A stretch of DNA of 64,000 nt. It comes from an uncultured Sphingomonadaceae bacterium (GTDB lineage: Bacteria; Pseudomonadota; Alphaproteobacteria; Sphingomonadales; Sphingomonadaceae). Location: NCBI GenBank assembly GCA_913060895.1, contig CAJXSN010000003.1:62001-126000 (forward strand). Reading direction: 5' to 3'. Positions 7,251 through 64,000 of this stretch are shown piece by piece (the stretch's first letter is position 1; every line of letters begins with the position of its first letter). A program made the translations under genes and the position numbers. Under the pieces are notes generated by a model that was not told the DNA's origin, ran no database searches, and worked only from the letters and a program-made list of their open reading frames with translations.

Positions 7251-8372
7251 ATGTTCGACGACTTCTATGGCCTGACCGGGCGACCATTCCAGCTGACGCC
7301 GGATCCGGAATTCTATTTCGAGAGCGTGACGCACCGCAAGGCGCTGTCCTATCTCGGCTACGGCATGGCGCAGGGTGAAGGTTTCATCGTCATTACGGGC
7401 GAGGTAGGCGCCGGTAAATCGACGTTGGTGGCCCACCTGATGAACAAGGTGGACCCCGAGCGCCTGACAGTGGGGCAGGTTGTGACCAGCAATCTCGATG
7501 GGGAAGAGCTGGTTCATATGGTGGCGCAGAGTTTTGGCCTCGACATCGAAGGTCATGACAAAGCCAGCGCGCTGGGTGCGATAGAGGAATTTCTGCACGA
7601 AGAAGCCCGCGCCGGTCGCCGCTGTCTGCTGACTGTAGATGAATCCCAGAACCTATCCGTGGAAGCACTGGAAGAACTGCGGATGCTATCGAACTTTCAG
7701 CTGGGCAGCCATCCGCTGCTGCAATTGCTGTTACTGGGCCAGCCGGAATTCAAGGCTACGCTGGCCAATCACGAAGAACTGGAGCAACTGCGCCAGCGTG
7801 TGATTGCCGCGCATCATCTCGATGCGATGGAGCCTTCCGAACTGCAGCCCTATGTAGAGCACCGCCTTCAGTGCGTAGGGTGGGAGGGCAATCCGTCCTT
7901 CGACCAGCGCGTTTATGCAGAACTGTATCAGGCGACAGGCGGCATTCCGCGCCGAGTCAACCAGATCGTCACGCGGCTTCTGCTTTTGGGTGCTGTCGAG
8001 CAGCGGACCCGGATTGACGCGTCCATGCTGTCTTCCGTGATGGAAGAAATGGTCAATGACAGCACATTCCCTGCCGCTGCTCCCAAGCCGATGACGAAGG
8101 CCGAGCCTGCTGCTGCGGCACCGGCACCCCTCAACCACGCACCGCGCATCGACGCGGAGCAGGTGGAAGCTATGCTGGCATCGCGCGATGCACAGATCAC
8201 GGAGCTTCAGCAGGCTGTTGTCGAGCTGTCAGATGCGCCGGCCGTACCTGCCGATCTCTCGCACCGCATTTCTGCACTTGAAGCGCGTATTGACGATCAG
8301 GAGCAGTCTGTCCGCCACGTCCTGACGATCCTGATCGAATGGATCGAAGGCGACGAGCGCCGCGCAGCCTGA
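7251..8372 (+). CDS. XrtA-associated AAA ATPase (ExeA/GspA-like)
   Basis: 373-residue AAA+ ATPase that begins with the signature YGLTGRPFQLTPDPEF. Walker A is GEVGAGKST (50-57) and Walker B is LLTVDESQNLS (about 125-135), followed by an arginine-rich sensor region (GGIPRRVNQIV). The C-terminal quarter is an Ala/Pro linker and a short coiled coil (about 310-365). This layout fits the PEP-CTERM-locus ATPase family (TIGR03015), related to ExeA of type II secretion. It lies 13 bases after the barrel gene and overlaps no neighbour, and probably acts in assembly or energising of export. Confidence 0.9.
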   Translation: MFDDFYGLTGRPFQLTPDPEFYFESVTHRKALSYLGYGMAQGEGFIVITGEVGAGKSTLVAHLMNKVDPERLTVGQVVTSNLDGEELVHMVAQSFGLDIEGHDKASALGAIEEFLHEEARAGRRCLLTVDESQNLSVEALEELRMLSNFQLGSHPLLQLLLLGQPEFKATLANHEELEQLRQRVIAAHHLDAMEPSELQPYVEHRLQCVGWEGNPSFDQRVYAELYQATGGIPRRVNQIVTRLLLLGAVEQRTRIDASMLSSVMEEMVNDSTFPAAAPKPMTKAEPAAAAPAPLNHAPRIDAEQVEAMLASRDAQITELQQAVVELSDAPAVPADLSHRISALEARIDDQEQSVRHVLTILIEWIEGDERRAA

Positions 8373-8392
8373 TACGAAAAGGCCCATACTCC

Positions 8393-9280
8393 ATGCAGGC
8401 AACAGCCGCCACAAACCCGCGCATCGTCAATGGATTGTCTGTCGATGTTGAGGACTGGTTCCAGGTCGGCGCGTTCGAAGATGTGATCGAGCGCGGCGAT
8501 TGGGACAGCCTTGCCAGCCGTGTGGAGGACAATGTTCTGCGCATTCTCGACTTGTTCGACGAAGCGGATGTGAAGGCAACGTTTTTTACGCTGGGCTGGG
8601 TTGCCAAGCGGCACGGGCCCCTGATGCGCCGCATTGTAGAGCGGGGGCATGAACTGGCCAGTCATGGGTATGACCACGCCCGCGTTTTCAATTTCGATCG
8701 CAAACAATTTGCAGGCGATCTGAAGCTGGCACGAATGATCCTCGAAGACGCGTCAGGCGTGCGGATCACCGGCTACCGCGCGCCCAGCTTCTCCATCGAT
8801 CAGCGCACTCCGTGGGCCTATATGGAACTGGCGGAGCAAGGTTATACCTATTCCTCCAGCGTCGCGCCGATTACTCATGACCATTATGGTTGGCGCGAGG
8901 CACCACGTTTCGCGTTTCGTCCTCTGCCGTGGTCCGATCTGATCGAAATTCCGGTTACGACCGCAATTCTTGGTGGCCGGAGGATTGCAGCTGGTGGAGG
9001 CGGGTTTTTCCGCGTGTTGCCCTATGCCTTCAGCCGCTGGGCCATCCGGCAGGTGAACCGGCGCGAAGAACGGCCGGCAATTTTCTATTTTCACCCGTGG
9101 GAAATCGATCCGAAGCAGCCACGCGTTGGCCATGCTCCGGTGAAGTCGAAGCTGCGCCATTATACCAATCTGGACAGAATGGCGGACAAGCTGGGTGAGC
9201 TTGTGCATGAATTTGACTGGGGCCGAATGGATGCGCTGGCGTACCGCGAAGCGGTGCGTGCACCGGAGTTGGCCGCGTGA
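8393..9280 (+). CDS. XrtA system polysaccharide deacetylase
   Basis: 295-residue NodB-type carbohydrate esterase (CE4). The 8393 ATG is favoured over 8339 because the longer form overlaps the ATPase gene and adds a basic, non-homologous N-terminus; AAAAGG lies about 10 bases upstream. The metal and catalytic motif SVDVEDWF is at residues 16-23, and the metal-binding histidines are in ASHGYDH (His91, His95). Later motifs are GYRAPSFS and YFHPWEIDP. The SVDVEDWF opening is typical of the PEP-CTERM-locus subfamily (TIGR03006). It would remove acetyl groups from the exopolysaccharide in or at the periplasm. Confidence 0.92.
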   Translation: MQATAATNPRIVNGLSVDVEDWFQVGAFEDVIERGDWDSLASRVEDNVLRILDLFDEADVKATFFTLGWVAKRHGPLMRRIVERGHELASHGYDHARVFNFDRKQFAGDLKLARMILEDASGVRITGYRAPSFSIDQRTPWAYMELAEQGYTYSSSVAPITHDHYGWREAPRFAFRPLPWSDLIEIPVTTAILGGRRIAAGGGGFFRVLPYAFSRWAIRQVNRREERPAIFYFHPWEIDPKQPRVGHAPVKSKLRHYTNLDRMADKLGELVHEFDWGRMDALAYREAVRAPELAA

Positions 9281-53547: not shown

Positions 53548-54324
53548 ATGCTGCTTGCCGTCGATGTAGGTAACACCAATCTGGTATTCGCAGTGTTCGA
53601 TGGTGAGGAGGTGCGCGCCCGCTGGCGTATTGCTACCGATCCGCGCCGGACTGGGGACGAATATGCGGTCTGGTTGTTTCAGCTCTTATCAATAGAGAAT
53701 ATTGCTCGCGAGGGTATCAAACGCATCATCGTAGGTTCGGTGGTGCCGCGTGCAGATCACAATCTGACCGTTCTTGCGGAAAAATACTTTGGCATCACGC
53801 CGCTCATCGCAGGCCGAGGAAAAGCTGAATGGGGCTTTGCCATTGATGTTGAGCAGCCAAGCTCGCTGGGTGCAGATCGCGCATTAAACTGTATTGCGGC
53901 GCATGACCTGGTAGCGGGCGACAAGGTAATCGTCGACTTCGGCACGGCCACCAAATTTGAAGCGCTGGACTACAATGGCACTTACAAGGGCGGAATTATC
54001 ACGCCCGGGATAGATCTTTCACTCGATGCACTGGTTGGCAAAACTGCCAAACTCCCTCGCATCGCCATCCGTGCGCCCGACGGGCGCAGCGTTATCGGTC
54101 GTAATACCGAGGATCAGATGCTGATTGGCATTTTCTGGGGTTACGTTGCTATGATGGAAGGCTTGATACAGCGGATGCGCGATGAAATCGGGCGGCCGAC
54201 AAAGGTTGTTGCGACCGGTGGGCTCGCCGTGCTGTTCGATGACCACACCGATATTTTCGATGTAGTGGATGCCGATCTGACCATTCGAGGACTCAAGTTG
54301 TTGGCAGATCGGGTGGCGTCATGA
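53548..54324 (+). CDS. coaX: Type III pantothenate kinase
   Basis: 258-residue ASKHA-fold kinase for the first step of CoA synthesis. The phosphate motif is [15 protein letters not shown] at the N-terminus. Others are [29 protein letters not shown] and [10 protein letters not shown]. Type III kinases need a monovalent cation and are not feedback-inhibited by CoA. It sits 3 bases after birA and overlaps rnj by 4 bases. Confidence 0.96.
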
Positions 54325-56000
54325 AGAAGAACTACCAGCCAGAAAACGAGCTGTTATTTCTTGCCCTTGGCGGGTCCGGAGAGATTGGCATGAACGTCAA
54401 TCTTTATGGCTGCGATGGCAAGTGGTTGATGGTCGATCTGGGCATGAGCTTTGGCGCAAACGAATATCCCGGCACCGAATTACTGTTTGCAGATATCGAT
54501 TTCATCGAAGAACGGTCCAATGATCTTCTGGGCATTGTGCTGACGCATGCGCATGAGGATCACATCGGCGCAATTCCTTACTTCGCAGCCGAACTGGACG
54601 TGCCGCTATACGCTACCCCGTTCACTGCTGAACTGATCCGACGCAAGCTGGAAGAGGCAGGGCTCCTCAAAGAAGTAGAAGTGCGGATTATCGAGGAGGA
54701 TCACGGCCATATTGAAATCGGCCCGTTCGAAGTCACATACATTCCGCTCGCCCATTCGATTGCTGAGGGCAATGCACTGGTCATAGACACGCCTTATGGC
54801 CGTGTCTTCCACACCGGCGACTGGAAACTGGACGAAGATCCGATTATCGGTGAACCGACCACCGAAGAAGAGTTGCGCGAGATCGGGGACGAGGGCGTGC
54901 TCGCGGTGGTTTGCGATTCGACCAATGTATTCAATCCCGAACCCAGCGGATCGGAAGGCGCGGTTTATCGCGGACTGATGGACGAGGTGAAAAAATGGGA
55001 TGGCCGCCGTGTGATGGTCACCACATTCGCTTCTAATGTCGCCCGCCTGCAGACGCTGGGCGAAGTGGCCAAGGCCAACGGCCGGCAACTGGTCGTTGCC
55101 GGTCGCTCGCTCGATCGCATGATCGAGGTTGCGCAGGAAAACGGATATTTGGAGAACTTCCCAGAGACGGTAGATTGGAATACCGCAATGGGTCTGCCGC
55201 GCGGCAAGGTGATGATCATGGCAACCGGCGGACAGGGCGAACCGCGCGCTGCACTGAGCCGCGTTGCAGAAGAAAACCATCCCCTCAAATTGAGCGAAGG
55301 CGATGTGGTGCTTTTTTCCAGTCGCCAGATTCCGGGCAATGAAATCAGTATCGGAAAGGTACAGAACAAGCTGGCCGAGCGCGGTATCGTAATGGTCACC
55401 GACCGCCAGAGCATGATTCATGTGTCAGGCCATCCGGGGCGTCCTGAACTGGAAGCACTCTACAGTTGGTTGCGGCCTGAAATACTGGTCCCCGTGCATG
55501 GCGAAATCAAGCATATGCAAGAGCAGGCGCGCGTTGGTATCGAAGCGGGAATTCCGAAAGCGGTCTACCAGAAGAACGGAGACATTGTACGATTGGCTCC
55601 GGGCAAACCCGGTAAGATCGCGCAGGTAGAAGCCGGGCGCCTGGTTCTTGATGGCGACATCATTGTGCCTGCTGATGGTGAGAGCATAGTGATGCGACGT
55701 CGCCTTGCGCATAATGGCGTTGTGATCGTAGTTCTGGGCCCCAACAACTCTGTCACTGTGGAAAGTCTCGGCTTGCCGCTGGACGAAGATCAGGCCGATT
55801 TCGTGGCAGAAGCAGAAGCCGATGTGGCAAAGGCAATTTCCTCGTCTGGCAAAAAGCGGCGCGGTGGCTCCAAAGGCGGTTCTAAAGGTCGCTCGCCTGC
55901 CAATGATCGCCTCGAAGCGGCTCGCCTTGCAGCTCGCCGCGCAGCGACGCGGTGGTCCGGTAAAAAGCCGCAAGTACGCGTTATCGATCTGGAAGGGTAA
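54321..56000 (+). CDS. rnj: Ribonuclease J
   Basis: 559-residue metallo-beta-lactamase/beta-CASP ribonuclease with exo- and endonuclease activity. The metal motif is [13 protein letters not shown], followed by [11 protein letters not shown] and the beta-CASP His in [11 protein letters not shown] and [10 protein letters not shown]. The C-terminus is basic ([15 protein letters not shown]). The start overlaps the coaX stop (ATGA). Together with RNase E at 22209-25016 the genome holds both decay systems, as many alphaproteobacteria do. Confidence 0.95.
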
Positions 56001-56005
56001 TTGTC

Positions 56006-56302
56006 ATGGCGTGGACTTCGATCCTGGCGATCTATTTCCTGATCTGGGTGATGTGCGCGTTCATCATGCTACCGTTTGGAGTGAAAACAGCCGAAGAACT
56101 GGGAATGGAAAATATCCCCGGTCAGGCAGAGAGCGCACCTGCCAATTTTCGCCCTAGCAAGATTATAATTCGGGCAAGCATCGCTGCTGCCCTACTGACC
56201 GGACTATGGGTGCTCAATTACCAGAATGGGTGGATCGGCGTCGATGTAATCGATATCTTTGAACGCCCCGGACATCTTGTGGTCGAAGACGAGGCTAATT
56301 AG
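56006..56302 (+). CDS. DUF1467 family membrane protein
   Basis: 98-residue protein with two membrane helices (about 4-24 and 53-71). The N-terminus, SILAIYFLIWVMCAFIMLPFG, and VKTAEELG are typical of DUF1467, found next to rnj in alphaproteobacteria. Function is unknown. It is 5 bases after rnj and ends the long co-oriented block; the converging coiled-coil gene ends 11 bases on, with no visible terminator between. Confidence 0.88.
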   Translation: MAWTSILAIYFLIWVMCAFIMLPFGVKTAEELGMENIPGQAESAPANFRPSKIIIRASIAAALLTGLWVLNYQNGWIGVDVIDIFERPGHLVVEDEAN

Positions 56303-56313
56303 AAAGAGTATAT

Positions 56314-58953
56314 CTAGTTCTCTCGCAACCGCTCGATTGCCTGCGCCAGAACAACATAGAGTTTGCCCATATCGGAACTTAGCAAAGTGACACCTAGTGC
56401 GTTTCCGTCACGGGTTGACAGCATCGTACGCAGCATTGCCTCGAAGTCGTGGATGTAGCGGCTGACATGGTCGCGGAAGTCAGGGTCGCTATCGTAAAGT
56501 TCGGCCACATCACGCGATTGGGTGCTGTCCAGCAAACTCACTGCGCGGCGAGTGAAAATGCCCCGATCGCCGCGCAGGTATGAAGTCCATGCCATGTCGG
56601 TAACATCACTCGACAGCGCTTTGGCGATATCGATAGCATTGGAATTGAGCGCTTCAGTAATCAGCGCCACGCGCCTCGCAAAGTCATTATCGACCTGCTC
56701 TTCTGCCCGTTCCCGGGCGAGCGATACGCGATTCTCCAGATTGCCTGCCAGTTCGTTCACCATTGAAAGCTGATCGCGCAACTGCAAGGCAGCCTGCCGG
56801 GCGGTTTCAGCCGCGCTTGCAGAGGCCAGATCAAGCTCTGCAATGCTACGTGAGGACTGTTCGCTAACCGCATTTGTGATTGCTTGAGCCGTTCTCTCGC
56901 CGATACTTTCGGAGATGAGGGCTAGGCGTTTTTCGCTCTCTGTATCGGCAAGAGAGAGGGCTTCGCGTGCTTTCCCGTCAAGTTCCTCGATTGATGAGCG
57001 CAGGACACTGCTTGCGCGTTCTCCCACAGCGTCACTGTCGCGCTCCAGCGTCGCGATTGTTTCGCGCAGAGCCTCCACCTCGCGGGCAAAGGTCGTGTGC
57101 ATCGACACTATGCGTTCGTCCAGCGAAGTCAGATTGGCATCGACGCGGTCGGTTTCTACGCGCGCGGCCAGAACGTAATCGGAGACGTTACGGGAACGTT
57201 CGCCTGTGCTGTCGAGCAGAACCTGCAGTGCCTCCCCGGCTTCACGGGTCGAAATGAGCCGACTTTCCACTTCTTCCAACGATGCGGGCAAGATGTCACG
57301 GCTATGCTCCGATCCAGCCTGAATCAATTCGAGGAGCCGTACGCTTCTGTCGGTCAGATCTTCGATGGCCGGGCGCAGAGTGTCGGCGTCTTCACGGGCG
57401 GAAGCTAACAGGGTCGCAGCATTATTGCCGGTAGTCTCGAGACGATCATACGCGTCTGCTGCTTGCGAAGCCAGTTGTTCTGCGCGCTCGGCAAGAGCGT
57501 CCATGTGAGTCACACTTGCTTCTGCACGTTTCCGCAAGGCATCGGTGGATTCAGCCTGCCGTGTTTGGCGTTCGGCCAGATTATCATCCAGCGTTGCCAG
57601 CCGCTCATTCAACGCCGTGATCGAAGCCTCTTCAACGGAGGCGATGTCTGCATTCCGCTTGAGCGCACGGTCACGGAATGCTGCATCGCGGTCCGCCATC
57701 GCGGCATCGATATTTTTGGCCTCGTCGCGAAGTTCTGCCAGTTTAGCCTGAGCGCTTTCTAGCGCTTGCGCGTCGAGAGACTGAATTTCTTCAATGGCAT
57801 GACCCAACCGTTCTCGCAGTGCATCCACTTGACGCGCCCAACTTTCACCAGCCTGTTCTTCTGCCGCACGCAAACCAGCTGAAATCGATTGTCCTTCCTC
57901 TGAAAGACCATCGAGCCGCACCTTCATAGTGTCGAACGCAGCTTCCTCAGCGCGAGTCAATTGAGCACTGGCCGCAGCCATTTCCTCGCCGAGACTGTCC
58001 ATTCTGCGACGCATGGCCGCAAGCGATTCAACCTCGCGGCTATCGAGATCACCGCGGAAATCGTCGCTTGCTTCTCGTAGCGCGGTGAAACGTTCAGACG
58101 TCACATCGCCCATATGTATTGCTTGCGCTTCGAAAGCGGAAAGGGCGGCGTCGACTCGTTCGCTCAAAGAAGCAACCTGACGCTCGCTCGCTTGACCAAA
58201 GACGTTCAGACGCTCGAATCCGGCAATAAGCTGCTCAAGCTGCGCCTTGGCTTCTTCGCCAGCAGCGCCGATCTGATTGGATGTATCTCGCGCCGAATTG
58301 GCGATCACAGGCAGGTCGTCGCGCAGCCGGTCCATATTCACCAGAGCACTTTCGCTAACTGTGCCAATTTGTTCGATCGTAGCGTGATTTTCGCCGATCA
58401 AATTTTGCAACCTGTCTGCGTGTTCGCCAATTCGCGTTCCAGCAACGCGCCCCAATGTTTCCAGTTCACGAGATTCGGCTGACAGAAATTCTCGGGCGAG
58501 GCTTAGCTCTCGGTTCACTGTGACCAGTCGGGATTCCAGCAGCGCTGATTCGCTGGACAGGATGTTAGCTACATCGGCGAATCGAGCCGCTTCGCTTCTG
58601 CTGCTGCGCATCGCGATGAGCCAGACACCTATGACGAGAAGGACAGGAAGCGCCCAATCGCCAACCCAGCCAATCCAGATCGCAGGTGTAGCCCCGGATA
58701 ATATCTCTGCCTGATGGGTCCAGCCCAAAAAAGCAGTCCAGCTGAGCACGGTCAGGGTGGCAAGAACTGGCCATATCCACGCAAGACGGGAAGTGGGCGC
58801 ATAGTCCTCTGTATTTTCTTCCCATGAAATAACCTCGTCCTCCTCCTCTGTATCTACTGGGGGAAGGGCGATTTCCGAGGCGTCGTGTGCTCCGGCTTCG
58901 TCCTGCTCGGGGCCTATGGCCCGAATGTGATGACCTCCGCTCATGTGAAACAT
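56314..58953 (-). CDS. Large two-TM coiled-coil protein, TipN-like architecture
   Basis: 879-residue protein. An acidic N-terminus (1-50) precedes two membrane helices (about 57-77 and 92-114), then about 760 residues of almost pure helical, heptad-rich sequence full of Ala, Glu, Arg and Ser. There is no enzymatic motif. The size and layout (two N-terminal helices plus long coiled coil) are those I recall for Caulobacter TipN, the new-pole marker of about 880-890 residues, but no sequence identity could be tested. The start may be 58953 or the ATG at 58944. It is divergent, by 61 bases, from an operon with Hpt-like and histidine-kinase-like genes, which fits a role in polarity. Confidence 0.72.
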   Translation of the reverse strand: MFHMSGGHHIRAIGPEQDEAGAHDASEIALPPVDTEEEDEVISWEENTEDYAPTSRLAWIWPVLATLTVLSWTAFLGWTHQAEILSGATPAIWIGWVGDWALPVLLVIGVWLIAMRSSRSEAARFADVANILSSESALLESRLVTVNRELSLAREFLSAESRELETLGRVAGTRIGEHADRLQNLIGENHATIEQIGTVSESALVNMDRLRDDLPVIANSARDTSNQIGAAGEEAKAQLEQLIAGFERLNVFGQASERQVASLSERVDAALSAFEAQAIHMGDVTSERFTALREASDDFRGDLDSREVESLAAMRRRMDSLGEEMAAASAQLTRAEEAAFDTMKVRLDGLSEEGQSISAGLRAAEEQAGESWARQVDALRERLGHAIEEIQSLDAQALESAQAKLAELRDEAKNIDAAMADRDAAFRDRALKRNADIASVEEASITALNERLATLDDNLAERQTRQAESTDALRKRAEASVTHMDALAERAEQLASQAADAYDRLETTGNNAATLLASAREDADTLRPAIEDLTDRSVRLLELIQAGSEHSRDILPASLEEVESRLISTREAGEALQVLLDSTGERSRNVSDYVLAARVETDRVDANLTSLDERIVSMHTTFAREVEALRETIATLERDSDAVGERASSVLRSSIEELDGKAREALSLADTESEKRLALISESIGERTAQAITNAVSEQSSRSIAELDLASASAAETARQAALQLRDQLSMVNELAGNLENRVSLARERAEEQVDNDFARRVALITEALNSNAIDIAKALSSDVTDMAWTSYLRGDRGIFTRRAVSLLDSTQSRDVAELYDSDPDFRDHVSRYIHDFEAMLRTMLSTRDGNALGVTLLSSDMGKLYVVLAQAIERLREN

Positions 58954-58982
58954 TTACCATAATTTATGTGTCAAGAAACCCT

Positions 58983-58993
58983 GTCTTAACCAT
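58983..58993. promoter_or_regulatory. GTCTTAACCAT, possible CtrA half-site
   Basis: The 11-mer GTCTTAACCAT lies in the 61-base divergent region and occurs again at 60536-60546. TTAACCAT resembles the half-site of the alphaproteobacterial cell-cycle regulator CtrA (full site TTAA-N7-TTAA). A further TTAA follows at 59000, but with 10 rather than 7 bases between, so it is not a canonical full site. Confidence 0.3.
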
Positions 58994-59014
58994 TGCGTTT
59001 TAAGTTATGGTATT

Positions 59015-59314
59015 ATGGCCTTCGAAAATGCTCCGTTCTCTGCGACTTTGGCAGCCGCCGCCGGTGAAGATGCGGGACTGCATGCAGAGTTGCGCATGGC
59101 ATTTCGAGAAAGTCTCGAGCAGCAAATTGACTTGCTGCGTCGCGCACGCTGCGATGGAAATTGGTTGATCGCTGGCCAGCGTATCAAAGGACTGGCGGCC
59201 AGTTTTCACGCCGAACCACTCATGGTCCTAGCTGATGAGGCGATTACCTGTGCTCCTGGCGATCCGGTTATTTTGCGCCGGCTCGATGGATTTCTGAACG
59301 AATTCGACGGCTGA
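59015..59314 (+). CDS. Hpt-like protein lacking the phospho-accepting histidine
   Basis: 99-residue all-helical protein. The segment WLIAGQRIKGLAASFHAEPL matches the Hpt core pattern A-H-x-L-K-G-x-A with following helix, but the position of the phospho-histidine is Gln55. The only nearby His (65) lies ten residues later in the FHA segment and does not fit. It is therefore a degenerate histidine phosphotransfer domain, possibly a binding partner rather than a relay. It heads a + strand operon ending in a histidine-kinase-like gene that also lacks its His. Confidence 0.65.
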   Translation: MAFENAPFSATLAAAAGEDAGLHAELRMAFRESLEQQIDLLRRARCDGNWLIAGQRIKGLAASFHAEPLMVLADEAITCAPGDPVILRRLDGFLNEFDG

Positions 59315-59372
59315 AGGCGTTTCAACGCAACGTCGCTTGGCAGCGTACGATGTCCCCATTAACGCGAGCGGC

Positions 59373-60542
59373 ATGAAACAGAACCACGATTTGATTGCCC
59401 TGCTGGCGTTGGATGACCGTGGCAGGAAAATGTGCCCCAACCGGTCGCGTTTTGCCAACACCCCGACTATCCTGCGTCAAGTCGATATGGCTCTGGCGCT
59501 GGGGTGCAAGACTCTGATTTTGCTGGTGGCAGACCCAAGCGACAGCGATGCCTTGGCAACGCAACATTTGGCGGAAGCCAATGAAATGCGGTTCCATTTA
59601 CTCACCCGGCCGCAACAATTACCAAATCTTTTGACCGATCGATCGGAACTCGTTTTGATTGCGCCTGGCGTAATGGCTGGCGATGCAGTCGTTTTGGAGG
59701 AAATGCTGGGCTCCGAGGGCTTACTCGCCATTCCAGCGGAAAGCCCTGACGGGCAGGGGCTGGAACGGCTTGATCTGCACAGCGCTTGGGGAGGGGCATT
59801 GCGGATGCCCGTAGAGCTGGTGGTCCAGATAGAGATGCTGGGCAATGAGTGCGAATTGCTGAGCGCGCTTCCACGAATTGCGCGTAGCTCTGGCGTGACT
59901 GAACGACCGATCCCAGATGAAATACTCCAAAGCCGCCGATGGACGATGGATGGTACGAAAGCCGATGAGCCTGCAACGGCTCCGGTATGGCGGGACATCC
60001 GCAATAGCATCGTCGCGCCTCTGGCCAGTATCTTTGCGGAAAAGAACTGGCCCGTATTCATTCCTGCCGCTGCGGCCTTGTTGCTTATCGTCATCTCGGC
60101 AATTGCGGTGTGGTTTGAACTCCTCGCCATAGCGGTTGCCGTGCTGGCGGTATCCATGTTCGCTATGTTACTGCAAGTCTTGATCAGCGCGCAGGCGGAG
60201 CCGCTGCGCCTGACAGGCAGCGCGGCGCCACTATGGGCCGGATTTGCGCCTATGTTGCCCGAGATCGTAGCAGCATTCGTGACCGGCATGGCTTTGTCGC
60301 AGAAAGCAAGCCTCGTTCCCTCTGCCTATGCTGCGGCTGCGCTTTTGGGTGCCGGTTGGCTTTCGCGCCGAACTGTCACCGCTGAATATAACGGACTGAC
60401 ATCGGGCCCTCTAGCATGGCTGGTGATTGCGTGTTTTGGGGCAGTGGGACATTGGTGGGCCGGGGTTGCCTTGTTAACAGCCTTCGCATTCGGTGCCATC
60501 GCACTGGAATTACGAGGGTTGCGGCGCATAACCACGTCTTAA
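59373..60542 (+). CDS. Membrane protein with nucleotidyltransferase-like N-terminal domain
   Basis: 389 residues from the ATG at 59373; a TTG at 59337 would add 12. I do not recognise a named family. The N-terminal 170 residues look like a Rossmann-type NTP-transferase fold: IALLALDDRGRKMCPN, ILRQVDMALALGCKTLILL and LVLIAPGVMAGDAV. The glycine-rich nucleotide loop is absent. From about 220 there are roughly five membrane helices (e.g. LLLIVISAIAVWFELLAIAV and WLVIACFGAVGHWWAGVALL). No CDP-alcohol phosphotransferase motif is present. It could be an inactive sensor or an enzyme of membrane lipid head groups. Confidence 0.6.
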   Translation: MKQNHDLIALLALDDRGRKMCPNRSRFANTPTILRQVDMALALGCKTLILLVADPSDSDALATQHLAEANEMRFHLLTRPQQLPNLLTDRSELVLIAPGVMAGDAVVLEEMLGSEGLLAIPAESPDGQGLERLDLHSAWGGALRMPVELVVQIEMLGNECELLSALPRIARSSGVTERPIPDEILQSRRWTMDGTKADEPATAPVWRDIRNSIVAPLASIFAEKNWPVFIPAAAALLLIVISAIAVWFELLAIAVAVLAVSMFAMLLQVLISAQAEPLRLTGSAAPLWAGFAPMLPEIVAAFVTGMALSQKASLVPSAYAAAALLGAGWLSRRTVTAEYNGLTSGPLAWLVIACFGAVGHWWAGVALLTAFAFGAIALELRGLRRITTS

Positions 60543-60546
60543 CCAT
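60536..60546. promoter_or_regulatory. second GTCTTAACCAT, at the start of the helical-protein gene
   Basis: Identical to the 11-mer at 58983-58993. It includes the stop codon of the preceding gene and the first two bases of the 60545 ATG, so if it binds a regulator it would act right at the start of the following gene. Confidence 0.25.
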
Positions 60547-61591
60547 GACGGTTTATGGGCAAGGTATGAATGAGCCGATTGCACCTTCTGAGCCGGACAA
60601 TCCGCTGCCCTCATCGTCTGTGGAAGACGTGATGCGGGATGAACTGGCTTATGGTGATGCAACTCTGGGTACAGTTGGACCGATCCTCGGGCATTTAGTC
60701 TTGAACCATGATCACTCGCTGTTCAGTGACGAAATTGTTGCACGCGTGCGCGGTATGCTGGCAAGTGTTGCCCACCAATTGATTGATATCGAAACAGTGC
60801 AGGCTGGCTCTATTGAACGAAAACCGGGCGATGTGAAAGGCGGTGGCGAGGGCGACGCCGCCAATTCCGATTTGGAAATTAAGGCAGAGCGTCTGGAATC
60901 CCTGACAAATGCAATCGCGGCAGATGCTGGTTTCCTGCAACACTGCCATTCTCTCGCTATAGAATATCAACTGGCTGCACATCTGAAGGCGCGCAATTCG
61001 CTTGATCCGGTACTTAGCCCGCTGATCCAGGCAATGATTGCTGACAAGGATAAGAGCACCGCTAGTATCGCAATGGCAACGCTGGCTGCGCAGGCGCGTT
61101 TTATGCAGCAGCAACGCCGCATGGTCTTGCCGTTGGCGGAATTGCGGGCAAATCTGGCGCAGCATGCGGTGCAGTGTTGGCGCAGCGGATCATCCGTCAC
61201 GGACGATGACATGCTAACTAAGATAATGAATGCGCAGCGCAGCGCGAGTGACGAAACGCGCTCTCGACTGGGTTTGATTCGGCAATTGCTAGATACGATG
61301 GCCCGGACCACGTCCGGCGGATTGGCTGGCTCTTTGTCGATACCGCATGCTGGATTGTCCATCTTCATATCCGCGCTTGGAGCGACAGGCGGGATCACGC
61401 GTGAAGACGCTGCACTGATCACCAATGACCGGCAAATGGCGCGACTGGCGCTGACATTGCGCGGAGCGGGTTTGCAGGCGCAGGCCGTTCAAGAACAATT
61501 TCATTATCTTCACCCAAATATTGAATTACCTGCCGATTTTGACACATTGCGGCCAGATCGGGCGCGTGACATGCTTGGTGCTCGCTCGTGA
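60545..61591 (+). CDS. Helical protein of unknown function
   Basis: 348 residues from the ATG at 60545 (MTVYGQGMNEPIAPSEP); 60566 is an alternative start, and the longer frame from 60416 lies within the upstream gene. No signal peptide, membrane helix or known motif is seen. Most of it is predicted helical with regular Leu/Ala spacing, e.g. VARVRGMLASVAHQLIDIE and ASIAMATLAAQARFMQQQRR. It lies between the membrane protein and the kinase-like gene and overlaps the latter by 4 bases (GTGA), which suggests a shared function with it. Confidence 0.6.
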   Translation: MTVYGQGMNEPIAPSEPDNPLPSSSVEDVMRDELAYGDATLGTVGPILGHLVLNHDHSLFSDEIVARVRGMLASVAHQLIDIETVQAGSIERKPGDVKGGGEGDAANSDLEIKAERLESLTNAIAADAGFLQHCHSLAIEYQLAAHLKARNSLDPVLSPLIQAMIADKDKSTASIAMATLAAQARFMQQQRRMVLPLAELRANLAQHAVQCWRSGSSVTDDDMLTKIMNAQRSASDETRSRLGLIRQLLDTMARTTSGGLAGSLSIPHAGLSIFISALGATGGITREDAALITNDRQMARLALTLRGAGLQAQAVQEQFHYLHPNIELPADFDTLRPDRARDMLGARS

Positions 61592-62964
61592 CTGGCGACC
61601 CGTCGGGCACACCCGCAGAGGTTCATGGGCGCACCGATGCCGAAGACCGGCTTGTTTTTGCAGACGAGATGCTTGGCGGGTTGCAGACCCGATGCGGCGG
61701 CAATTTGCCGGGTGTTATTGCTGTGCCCGAATTGCGTGAATTGGCTTCCAGAACGCGGCACTTCAAGGCCCCGCTCGCGCGCGAAATCCGGGCCTTTGAC
61801 GGGGAAAGGCACATTAGCATCTGGGCCGAAACCGCCCCTGACCGGAGCGGCAATGGCTGCCTTATTTCGCTCTTTAACTGGCGCAATATCGCATCAGATC
61901 ACGAACCTGAGACGGATGATATGCATCGCAACGCCTGTGACCGCGCAACGGCGGATGCAATCGTCCGGCTCGATCCCTCTCAGTGCGTGTTGTATGCTGT
62001 GGGGGAAGGGCGCGACCTTGCAGATATGGTCGAGGCTATGAACGCAGGGAAGGGACGCCTCTGGACCGAGTTCGTCGAATTGGAGAACATCGAGCATCGC
62101 CAGCCATTGCATTGGCGGCTTCTGGACGGGGCGCGATGCAGGGTAGAGCGCAAGGGGAGGACCTTTGCGGTTCGTCTGTTGCCACTCGGACGTTCCCATC
62201 CGGGAAAGGAGGGCTTCGAACTGCTCTTGATCGCCGACTACCCGCTACCAGCACAGAATGACATTCAACACCTTGCCCAAGAGGCGGCATCCCGGGACGG
62301 ACTGTCGGGTGAATTGGGCCCTGTACTGCGGCAACCGATCTCGCGGATCATTGCGAATGCAGAGACAATCCGGGCGCGTTTAGCCGGGCCGTTATCCGAC
62401 GAATACAGCCATTATGCTGCCGATATTGCAACCGCAGGACAGCATTTGTTAGCTCTGGTCGACGATCTGGCTGATCTCGAAGTGGTCGAGGCAGAGGGCT
62501 TCTCGACCGCTCCCGACTTGATCGACTTGGTTGAAGTGGCGCGGCAGGCGACCGGTATTCTGGGCATGCGGGCGCGCGAGAAACAGATTGATTTGATCGT
62601 CCCAACCGATGGCACGAAGCAGGCTGCCACAGGCGAATTTCGCCGGGTTCTGCAGATTTTGCTCAACCTGATTGGCAACGCGATCAATTACGCTCCGCCG
62701 GGTGCGAAAATCACTGTCACCGTCGGCGAGGGTAAAGGAACTGCGTCTGTCACTGTGGCAGATAACGGCCCCGGCATGGCGGAATCCGACGCCGCGCGCG
62801 TATTCGACAAATTCGAGCGTCTTGGCCGCAGCGGAGATGGCGGCTCGGGCCTTGGCCTGCATATATCACGTCGGCTCGCTCATGCTATGGGAGGTGAGCT
62901 TTTGCTGGATACCAAGCCGGGGGAGGGCGCACGCTTTACGCTTTACCTGCCCGTCGCAGCCTAG
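61588..62964 (+). CDS. Histidine kinase-like protein without phospho-acceptor His (PleC/DivJ-like)
   Basis: 458-residue cytoplasmic protein. The N-terminal half (1-225) looks like PAS-type sensor domains with no membrane helix. The dimerisation helix has LRQPISRIIANAETI and YAADIATAGQHLLALVDDLADLE, the pattern of PleC/DivJ kinases, but where SHELRTPL should stand it reads GPVLRQPI: Pro245 replaces the phospho-histidine. The ATPase domain is intact: N box LLNLIGNAINYAP, G1 ADNGPGM (391-397), G2 GGSGLGL (418-424). It could bind ATP yet not autophosphorylate in the usual way, recalling DivL, where the residue is Tyr. Confidence 0.85.
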   Translation: MTGDPSGTPAEVHGRTDAEDRLVFADEMLGGLQTRCGGNLPGVIAVPELRELASRTRHFKAPLAREIRAFDGERHISIWAETAPDRSGNGCLISLFNWRNIASDHEPETDDMHRNACDRATADAIVRLDPSQCVLYAVGEGRDLADMVEAMNAGKGRLWTEFVELENIEHRQPLHWRLLDGARCRVERKGRTFAVRLLPLGRSHPGKEGFELLLIADYPLPAQNDIQHLAQEAASRDGLSGELGPVLRQPISRIIANAETIRARLAGPLSDEYSHYAADIATAGQHLLALVDDLADLEVVEAEGFSTAPDLIDLVEVARQATGILGMRAREKQIDLIVPTDGTKQAATGEFRRVLQILLNLIGNAINYAPPGAKITVTVGEGKGTASVTVADNGPGMAESDAARVFDKFERLGRSGDGGSGLGLHISRRLAHAMGGELLLDTKPGEGARFTLYLPVAA

Positions 62965-63191: not shown

Positions 63192-64000
63192 CTAGCGCTG
63201 GCCGACCGGCACGTAATCACGCTGTGTCGGGCCGGTGTAGAGCTGGCGCGGACGTCCGATGACCTGAGCGGGGTCGGAAATCATTTCATTCCACTGCGAG
63301 ACCCAGCCCACCGTGCGGGCGAGAGCGAATAGAGCGGTGAACATGCTGGACGGGAAACCAATCGCGGACAGGATGACGCCCGAGTAGAAATCGACGTTGG
63401 GGAACAGCTTCTTCTCTTTGAAATAATCGTCGTTCAGCGCCATTTCTTCCAGTTGCAGCGCAACCTCGAAGACTGGATCCTTGACCTGCAACGCGTCGAA
63501 CACTTCGCGCACGGTTTTCTGCATCACCGTGGCGCGGGGATCGTAGTTCTTGTATACGCGATGTCCAAAGCCCATCAGGCGGAACGGATCGTTCTTGTCC
63601 TTGGCGCGCTCGAGATAATGCGGGATTTTGTCCGGTGTGCCGATTTCGCGCAGCATGTTGAGCGCCGCTTCGTTCGCGCCGCCATGTGCAGGGCCCCACA
63701 GGCAGGCAATCCCGGCCGCAGTGCAGGCGAACGGGTTCGCGCCCGAAGAACCGGCCAGTCGAACAGTCGACGTCGATGCATTCTGCTCATGGTCGGCATG
63801 AAGGATGAAAATTCGGTCCATCGCGCGTTCGATTGCCGGATGGATCTCATATTCCTCGGCCGGAACTCCGAACGTCATGTTCAGGAAATTTCCTGTGTAA
63901 CTGAGGTCGTTCTTTGGTTGAACGAAGGGCTGACCCACAGCGTATTTATACGCCCATGCCGCAATCGTCGGCATCTTGGCGATCAGGCGATGGCTGCTGA
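63192..64000 (-). CDS. gltA: Citrate synthase (5' part beyond the window)
   Basis: C-terminal two thirds of a type II citrate synthase, which condenses acetyl-CoA and oxaloacetate. The frame remains open to the right edge (about 270 residues visible). Key segments are [20 protein letters not shown] with a catalytic His, [27 protein letters not shown] with the second His, and [11 protein letters not shown] with the catalytic Asp. The usual ending [13 protein letters not shown] is complete. Confidence 0.96.

Follow-up and report, generated by a model that had tools for sequence, protein, structure and literature searches.

Five adjacent genes in a 64,000-nucleotide stretch of an uncultured Sphingomonadaceae bacterium (GenBank assembly GCA_913060895.1, 2.73 Mb; contig CAJXSN010000003.1, positions 62,001 to 126,000; hereafter the window) may represent the remnant of a phosphorelay that has been converted to regulate a membrane coiled-coil complex without passing phosphate. 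We put the probability of this reading at about one half. Its historical part, descent from a relay that carried histidines, is well supported by sequence comparison, and we infer the mechanism and any role in polarity or the cell cycle. An earlier note on this DNA had proposed a polarity or cell-cycle module built from pseudo-signalling proteins, and the five reading frames and the 61-base gap between the two divergent genes are as it gave them. The genes and their products are referred to here as CC (coiled-coil), HPT (Hpt-like), NTM (membrane), HEL (helical) and PHK (kinase-like), and are arranged as follows:

56314-58953, minus strand: CC, a predicted membrane-anchored coiled-coil protein of 879 residues whose C-terminal domain (about residues 730-876) is conserved
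59015-59314, plus strand: HPT, 99 residues, Hpt-derived, phospho-histidine absent, with Gln55 at the site (codon 59177-59179)
59337-60542, plus strand: NTM, a putative degenerate membrane protein of the IPCT-DIPPS type, with nucleotidyltransferase-like and CDP-alcohol phosphotransferase-like membrane domains
60545-61591, plus strand: HEL, predicted all-helical, probably of a divergent DUF2336 lineage; this frame is preferred over a longer listed one from 60416
61588-62964, plus strand: PHK, kinase-like with an intact ATP-binding domain; its GTG start overlaps the HEL stop, and Pro245 (codon 62320-62322) takes the place of the histidine

The NTM frame is listed from a TTG at 59337, and an ATG at 59373 was judged by eye to be the likelier start.

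There are several lines of evidence for this reading. First, PHK has the features of a pseudo-histidine kinase: a kinase fold, a phospho-histidine lost over a whole clade, and an ATP site under selection. It matches the Pfam families HATPase_c (3.1e-27) and HisKA (1.9e-06), and the N, G1, F and G2 boxes of a HisKA-kinase ATP site are all present, but Pro245-Val246 replaces the His-Glu of the HisKA phospho-acceptor, much as the earlier note had described. In an alignment of 67 rows (the window's own included), the phospho-acceptor column holds a histidine in 24 and another residue in 43. The histidine-bearing rows are 18 kinases from sister families (every one of the 18 read out), five early-branching members of the window's own family (from regions L124, L210, L212, L214 and L219), and L218. 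None of the 43 rows without the histidine keeps the glutamate that follows it, and all of them keep Asn364, Asp392, Gly394, Gly396, Gly419, Gly421 and Gly423 of the ATP site; Asn360 and Phe409 are each present in 42. On a tree built with the H-box columns left out, the histidine state is explained by two changes, a single loss and an odd later histidine in L218; this is a quick-method tree with SH-aLRT support only, in which 27 of 64 inner branches are weak and the long branches of L216 and L175 join. The L218 kinase itself (7398-8837, minus strand, genome G024) has its histidine in an altered box, DHSFKPSI, and is nested among kinases without one, so that the residue is either regained or there by chance.

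The earlier note had allowed that close homologues might keep the histidines and that the window simply holds a decaying copy. Decay of a single copy is ruled out by the conservation of the losses over the clade, shared by those 43 of 67 rows, together with low dN/dS. Against a genome of the same genus dN/dS is 0.086 for CC, 0.171 for NTM, 0.132 for HEL and 0.083 for PHK, compared with 0.046 for RNase J, values that are rough because dS exceeds 1; dS is saturated in HPT, whose pN is 0.065.

Second, the partner protein has lost its histidine as well. By sequence alone the window HPT matches no Pfam family, and six of the 17 members of its family match Hpt (best 0.0025); compared profile to profile, the family nonetheless matches the histidine-bearing Hpt proteins found at the same place in relatives with an E-value of 2.5e-10, and descent from a true Hpt is well supported. 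The position of the histidine in the HxxKG helix is occupied by Gln55 in the window, and no histidine occurs at this site in the 25 scored genomes in which the kinase, too, is without one. Among the 29 genomes that could be scored for both partners (counted by hand), both histidines are absent in these 25 and both are kept in three (G040, G056 and G007); none keeps the histidine in the kinase only.

Third, early-branching members of the window's family preserve the older state. In G056 one region (L211) contains CC, a histidine-bearing Hpt, a response regulator, a second histidine-bearing Hpt, NTM, flgK and an flgL-like gene, and a second contig (L212) contains a DUF2336 gene and a histidine-bearing kinase. 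In G052 the order is histidine-bearing kinase, DUF2336, flgL-like gene, flgK, NTM, histidine-bearing Hpt, response regulator and CC (L210), and a separate first Hpt was not found in that region. The poor assembly of G007 has CC, histidine-bearing Hpt, regulator, second Hpt, NTM, flgK, flgL-like gene, DUF2336 and histidine-bearing kinase (L219). G040 divides these genes among CC, histidine-bearing Hpt, regulator and second Hpt (L209), flgK, flgL-like gene, DUF2336 and histidine-bearing kinase (L124), and an NTM gene that adjoins inositol-phosphate synthase (L208); G012 has NTM, DUF2336, a histidine-bearing kinase and gltA (L214). Response_reg is matched above the Pfam cut-off in all four relay regions (L209, L210, L211 and L219). 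L209, L210 and L211 each have a second Hpt that exceeds its cut-off, and that of L219 falls short; the first Hpt is above the cut-off in L209, L211 and L217, and no family was returned for the first Hpt of L219.

Fourth, the kinase and the helical protein can be traced together. Among the matches listed for 73 genomes from the order's other families, at least 59 genomes have a DUF2336 gene immediately ahead of the best relative of PHK, with both genes on one strand and no more than 2 kb apart; of the remaining 14, seven show a different arrangement, the edge of a contig or no listed partner, and seven have no kinase among those matches. Twenty sister-family regions (L188-L207), selected for the DUF2336-kinase pairing, contain the DUF2336 gene in 20 cases and the kinase in 18 (the frame filter did not return it in L190 and L191), and in nine of them flgK, an flgL-like gene or both are located some 0.1-5 kb away. 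The FlgK proteins of L124 and L211 exceed the curated cut-off, and the FlgL-like genes match the FlgL and flagellin models with scores under the cut-offs of those models. PHK aligns with the histidine-bearing kinases over nearly its full length, N-terminal half included (E 2.1e-53). The window HEL is below the cut-off of Pfam DUF2336 (PF10098), and relatives of it exceed that cut-off in L111 (3.6e-15), L112 (1e-13), L214 (1.7e-28) and L048 (6.7e-61). The model of HEL has a pLDDT of 88.9. In a fold search with it no PDB structure reached E<=0.001 (the best had E 0.8), an absence that is no evidence of a new fold. Derivation of PHK from the kinase of a histidine kinase-DUF2336 pair is well supported by sequence, and HEL probably comes from the DUF2336 partner. 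A literature search, with subscription literature mostly outside its reach, found no paper mentioning DUF2336.

The membrane protein appears to have been an enzyme. The AlphaFold model of NTM (pLDDT 85.2) has as its best fold match the archaeal IPCT-DIPPS enzyme 4mnd (Foldseek E 1.9e-8), on which it superimposes with a Z-score of 19.4 and an rmsd of 5.9 over 344 residues. The two-domain fold of the model indicates that NTM derives from an enzyme of this type. The nucleotidyltransferase pattern that we searched for is found in none of 56 NTM members, and the CDP-alcohol motif DxxDGxxAR is complete in only three (L048, L213 and L223) and missing in the other 53; the window NTM is without both signature motifs. 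The three members with the full motif (genomes G017, G003 and G038) belong to an inositol-phosphate cluster at the same place, beside the CC gene, that consists of a synthase, a nucleotidyltransferase and two CDP-alcohol phosphotransferase-like genes.

Finally, the neighborhood is conserved. In the window it is flanked by the following features, together with a motif in the divergent gap:

54321-56000: RNase J
56006-56302: DUF1467
58976-58993, plus strand: conserved operator-like motif AAACCC-N4-TTAACCAT in the gap between CC and HPT
63192-64000 (the part within the window), minus strand: citrate synthase, gltA

When the family genomes were searched with the NTM sequence alone, 23 of 59 gave a match, one of them the window's own, and the regions of the other 22 were taken, with genes called by single-sequence and then profile searches. 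In 16 of these 22 regions RNase J, DUF1467, CC, HPT, NTM, HEL, PHK and gltA are present in one order, the same as in the window. HPT was not detected in L036 and L045, the former also being without a gltA match; L039, L041 and L049 keep CC and NTM and not HPT, HEL or PHK, and L048 is partial. At the level of profiles, NTM is matched in 57 of the 59 family genomes (55 once two short matches are dropped), CC in 56 (E<=1e-6) and PHK in 45 (E<=1e-45). Of the 53 genomes with both CC and NTM, 46 have them no more than 3 kb apart, and CC, NTM and PHK are linked together in 33 of 43. Nine genomes in which CC and NTM are linked have no PHK match at this threshold, which suggests that CC and NTM form the core. 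In genus g59 the five-gene set is intact in G234 (L111). Judged from the genomes compared, the recurrence of this gene order over many genera puts the arrangement far above chance; the possibility raised by the earlier note that the homologues are rarely neighbors is at odds with these counts. A literature search, with most subscription papers outside its scope, found no description of the five-gene locus.

The module does not need a flagellum, as all five genes are kept in genomes without a match to FlgK (TIGR02492, E<=1e-10): this model matches 38 of the 59 family genomes, and those without a match include the window's own genome and, counted by hand, 10 of the 16 relatives that carry the full set. 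The FlgK frames of the family are of about 430-580 and about 580-735 residues, sometimes both in one genome, which hints at two flagellar systems of which the older was replaced.

The divergent gap between CC and HPT contains a conserved block, AAACC...TTAACY. TTAACY is present in 14 of 17 homologous gaps, where its frequency in the window would predict 0.012 occurrences per 70 bases, a contrast that is not a probability because the 17 gaps are related. Both TTAA halves are present in six of the 17, spaced by N8 in five and by N7 in one (L037); the window has the downstream half only. The CtrA consensus is given as TTAA-N7-TTAAC (PMC7200025, a paper on Hyphomonas; here and below, papers cited by PMC number are drawn on for parts of their text). 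The motif resembles a CtrA half site, and CtrA may regulate the divergent promoter. Beyond near relatives TTAACY occurs in four of 13 larger CC-HPT stretches, with the full block in one (L129), and in two of eight CC-NTM stretches without HPT; more distant genera are mostly without the conserved block.

The scaffold candidate, CC, was described in the earlier note as a two-transmembrane protein of TipN-like layout. A hydrophobic segment at residues 90-110 passes a simple hydropathy cut, and the first one proposed, at about 57-79, falls below it. TipN, the marker of the new pole in Caulobacter, has N-terminal membrane segments and a long coiled coil. A CC profile matches 43 of 142 genomes of the alphaproteobacterial class, two of them from the window's own family; by hand count 37 of the matches cover the C-terminal domain and six the coiled coil only. 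Twenty CC regions from other families showed no match to HPT, NTM or HEL, and in one of them, L131, a kinase is matched about 5 kb from CC. The C-terminal domain also ends very long coiled-coil proteins across the Alphaproteobacteria (such as a 2418-residue frame in G164, C10, and L131 1840-7839). For comparison with TipN, a profile of 23 CC proteins was run on 30 genomes of a family taken as Caulobacteraceae because they are the best matches to the DivJ model (415-466 bits, none above its cut-off of 1000). Six of the 30 gave matches at E<=1 and one at E<=1e-3 (2e-6, in the coiled-coil region only); the C-terminal domain was matched in none, against 37 of the 142 class genomes. The weak matches are a protein that is PodJ-like by its sequence (the sole one below 1e-3), FtsH and one other protein. 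Kinship with TipN is accordingly unsupported and, within the reach of a profile search, orthology is rejected; TipN itself lay outside the comparison, and a remote kinship may exist. A literature search, to which subscription papers were mostly closed, found none joining TipN with the Sphingomonadales.

We therefore consider the following course of events. Comparison shows that the older state had two parts: a histidine kinase paired with DUF2336, which several genomes carry close to flgK and an flgL-like gene, and an Hpt-response regulator-Hpt set alongside CC. The window's lineage no longer has the regulator, the second Hpt or the flagellar genes at this locus, and both its kinase and its first Hpt are without the histidine, the remaining genes staying together under purifying selection. 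Because the proteins have been kept in many genera with an intact ATP pocket after the histidines were lost, they probably work without phosphate transfer. CC and the degenerate NTM would form the core, a membrane-bound scaffold. PHK would bind ATP, together with a signal received through its N-terminal half, and its dimerization helices would hand on a change of shape, rather than phosphate, to the pseudo-Hpt and to HEL; their output may adjust the assembly or placement of the scaffold, with the parts touching each other. The conserved neighborhood and the conserved losses make the non-catalytic signalling complex of the earlier note the natural reading, and we infer the complex itself. That the scaffold sits at a pole or division site is a guess. 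The most specific form of the proposal, in which the relay became an ATP-gated allosteric device over most of the family, running from pseudo-kinase to pseudo-Hpt to a scaffold of CC and pseudo-enzyme without phosphate transfer and outliving the flagellum, is tentative, and we regard it as somewhat doubtful.

Several observations weigh against the proposal of a phosphate-free regulator. PHK is absent at E<=1e-45 in 14 of the 59 family genomes, and the set is split or partly lost in some others, so the relay part is dispensable in places. The direct comparison of HEL with the ancestral DUF2336 profile is weak (E 0.0023, probability 12.7), its kinship being seen through intermediates. G005, alone among the 29 scored genomes, keeps the histidine of its Hpt and not that of its kinase. 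The CDP-alcohol motif is also missing from NTM in three regions of histidine-bearing genomes, L208, L210 and L211; the enzyme therefore decayed separately and the losses did not all happen at once. These NTM proteins and G005 rule out a strict joint loss of every activity.

The partial losses speak for an alternative in which the genes have separate housekeeping roles and only their positions are inherited, PHK being an ATP-binding remnant, HPT a small structural protein, and the whole never a common complex. HPT, HEL and PHK are lost from several genomes in which CC and NTM stay, five of six g59 regions have no CC beside NTM and PHK, G042 has CC 209 kb away, and in G070, also of g59, the set is split between CC with HPT (L126) and NTM with PHK (L119). 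Yet this last split keeps sub-groups together, gene order persists over many genera, and both partners are without histidine in 25 of 29 scored genomes, and we think separate roles unlikely. About as improbable, in our view, is control of CckA-ChpT-CtrA in the manner of DivL, with PHK binding CckA or a DivK-like regulator and the other proteins placing it at the pole. DivL, itself a pseudokinase, acts on CckA (PMC7200025), Sphingomonadales are reported to keep CckA-ChpT-CtrA with DivJ-PleC-DivK degenerate or lost (PMC2877005), TTAACY recurs in the divergent promoters, and the DivJ model matches PHK, though over the catalytic region only (residues 231-456). The promoter motif, however, is mostly spaced by N8 rather than the N7 of CtrA, and kinship with DivL, which the earlier note drew on for comparison, is not borne out, PHK deriving from a DUF2336-linked kinase. 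Furthermore, divL is reported to be more widely conserved than other polarity genes, most of which occur only in Caulobacterales and Rhizobiales (PMC8116508), so that a substitute for it may not be needed.

The constant presence of gltA beside PHK (17 of 18 PHK-bearing regions in the survey of 22) raises a further alternative, a sensor of energy or central metabolism in which PHK would sense ATP and division would be tuned jointly by the module and the neighboring citrate synthase. It is because of this adjacency that the Caulobacter citrate synthase CitA is of interest; CitA affects the G1-S step in a way that does not depend on its catalytic activity, and it came from a suppressor screen in tipN cpdR cells (PMC7083601). 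The ATP site of PHK is also invariant, but PHK and gltA are convergent rather than an operon, and we regard a metabolic sensor as the least probable of these explanations.

If the locus does regulate a membrane coiled-coil complex without phosphate transfer, its interest is that several linked signalling and lipid-type enzymes without catalytic residues have been kept together, where single pseudo-kinases such as DivL are known. The histidine-bearing relays of living relatives make it possible to ask directly what role a two-component kinase takes on after phosphate transfer is lost. The locus may also supply a missing regulator of polarity or the cell cycle in sphingomonads, given the reported degeneration or loss of DivJ-PleC-DivK (PMC2877005).

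The closest known relative of the PHK-HEL part is the DUF2336-histidine kinase pair, which shares gene order, nearly full-length kinase homology and the DUF2336 partner, and differs in that its kinases keep the histidine (18 of 18 in sister families). NTM resembles the Archaeoglobus IPCT-DIPPS enzyme (PDB 4mnd) in both domains and in their order, and differs from it in being without the nucleotidyltransferase pattern searched for (56 of 56 members) and DxxDGxxAR (53 of 56). CC has the general layout of TipN, and is set apart by a C-terminal domain unmatched in the 30 presumed Caulobacteraceae genomes. DivL has a tyrosine at its phospho-site, in contrast to the Pro, Arg, Gly, Ala, Asp, Ser, Thr or Gln of the PHK family, which descends from a DUF2336-linked kinase and travels with a pseudo-Hpt. 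What PHK shares with DivL, described as a pseudokinase (PMC7200025), is a histidine-kinase fold taken to act without phosphotransfer of its own.

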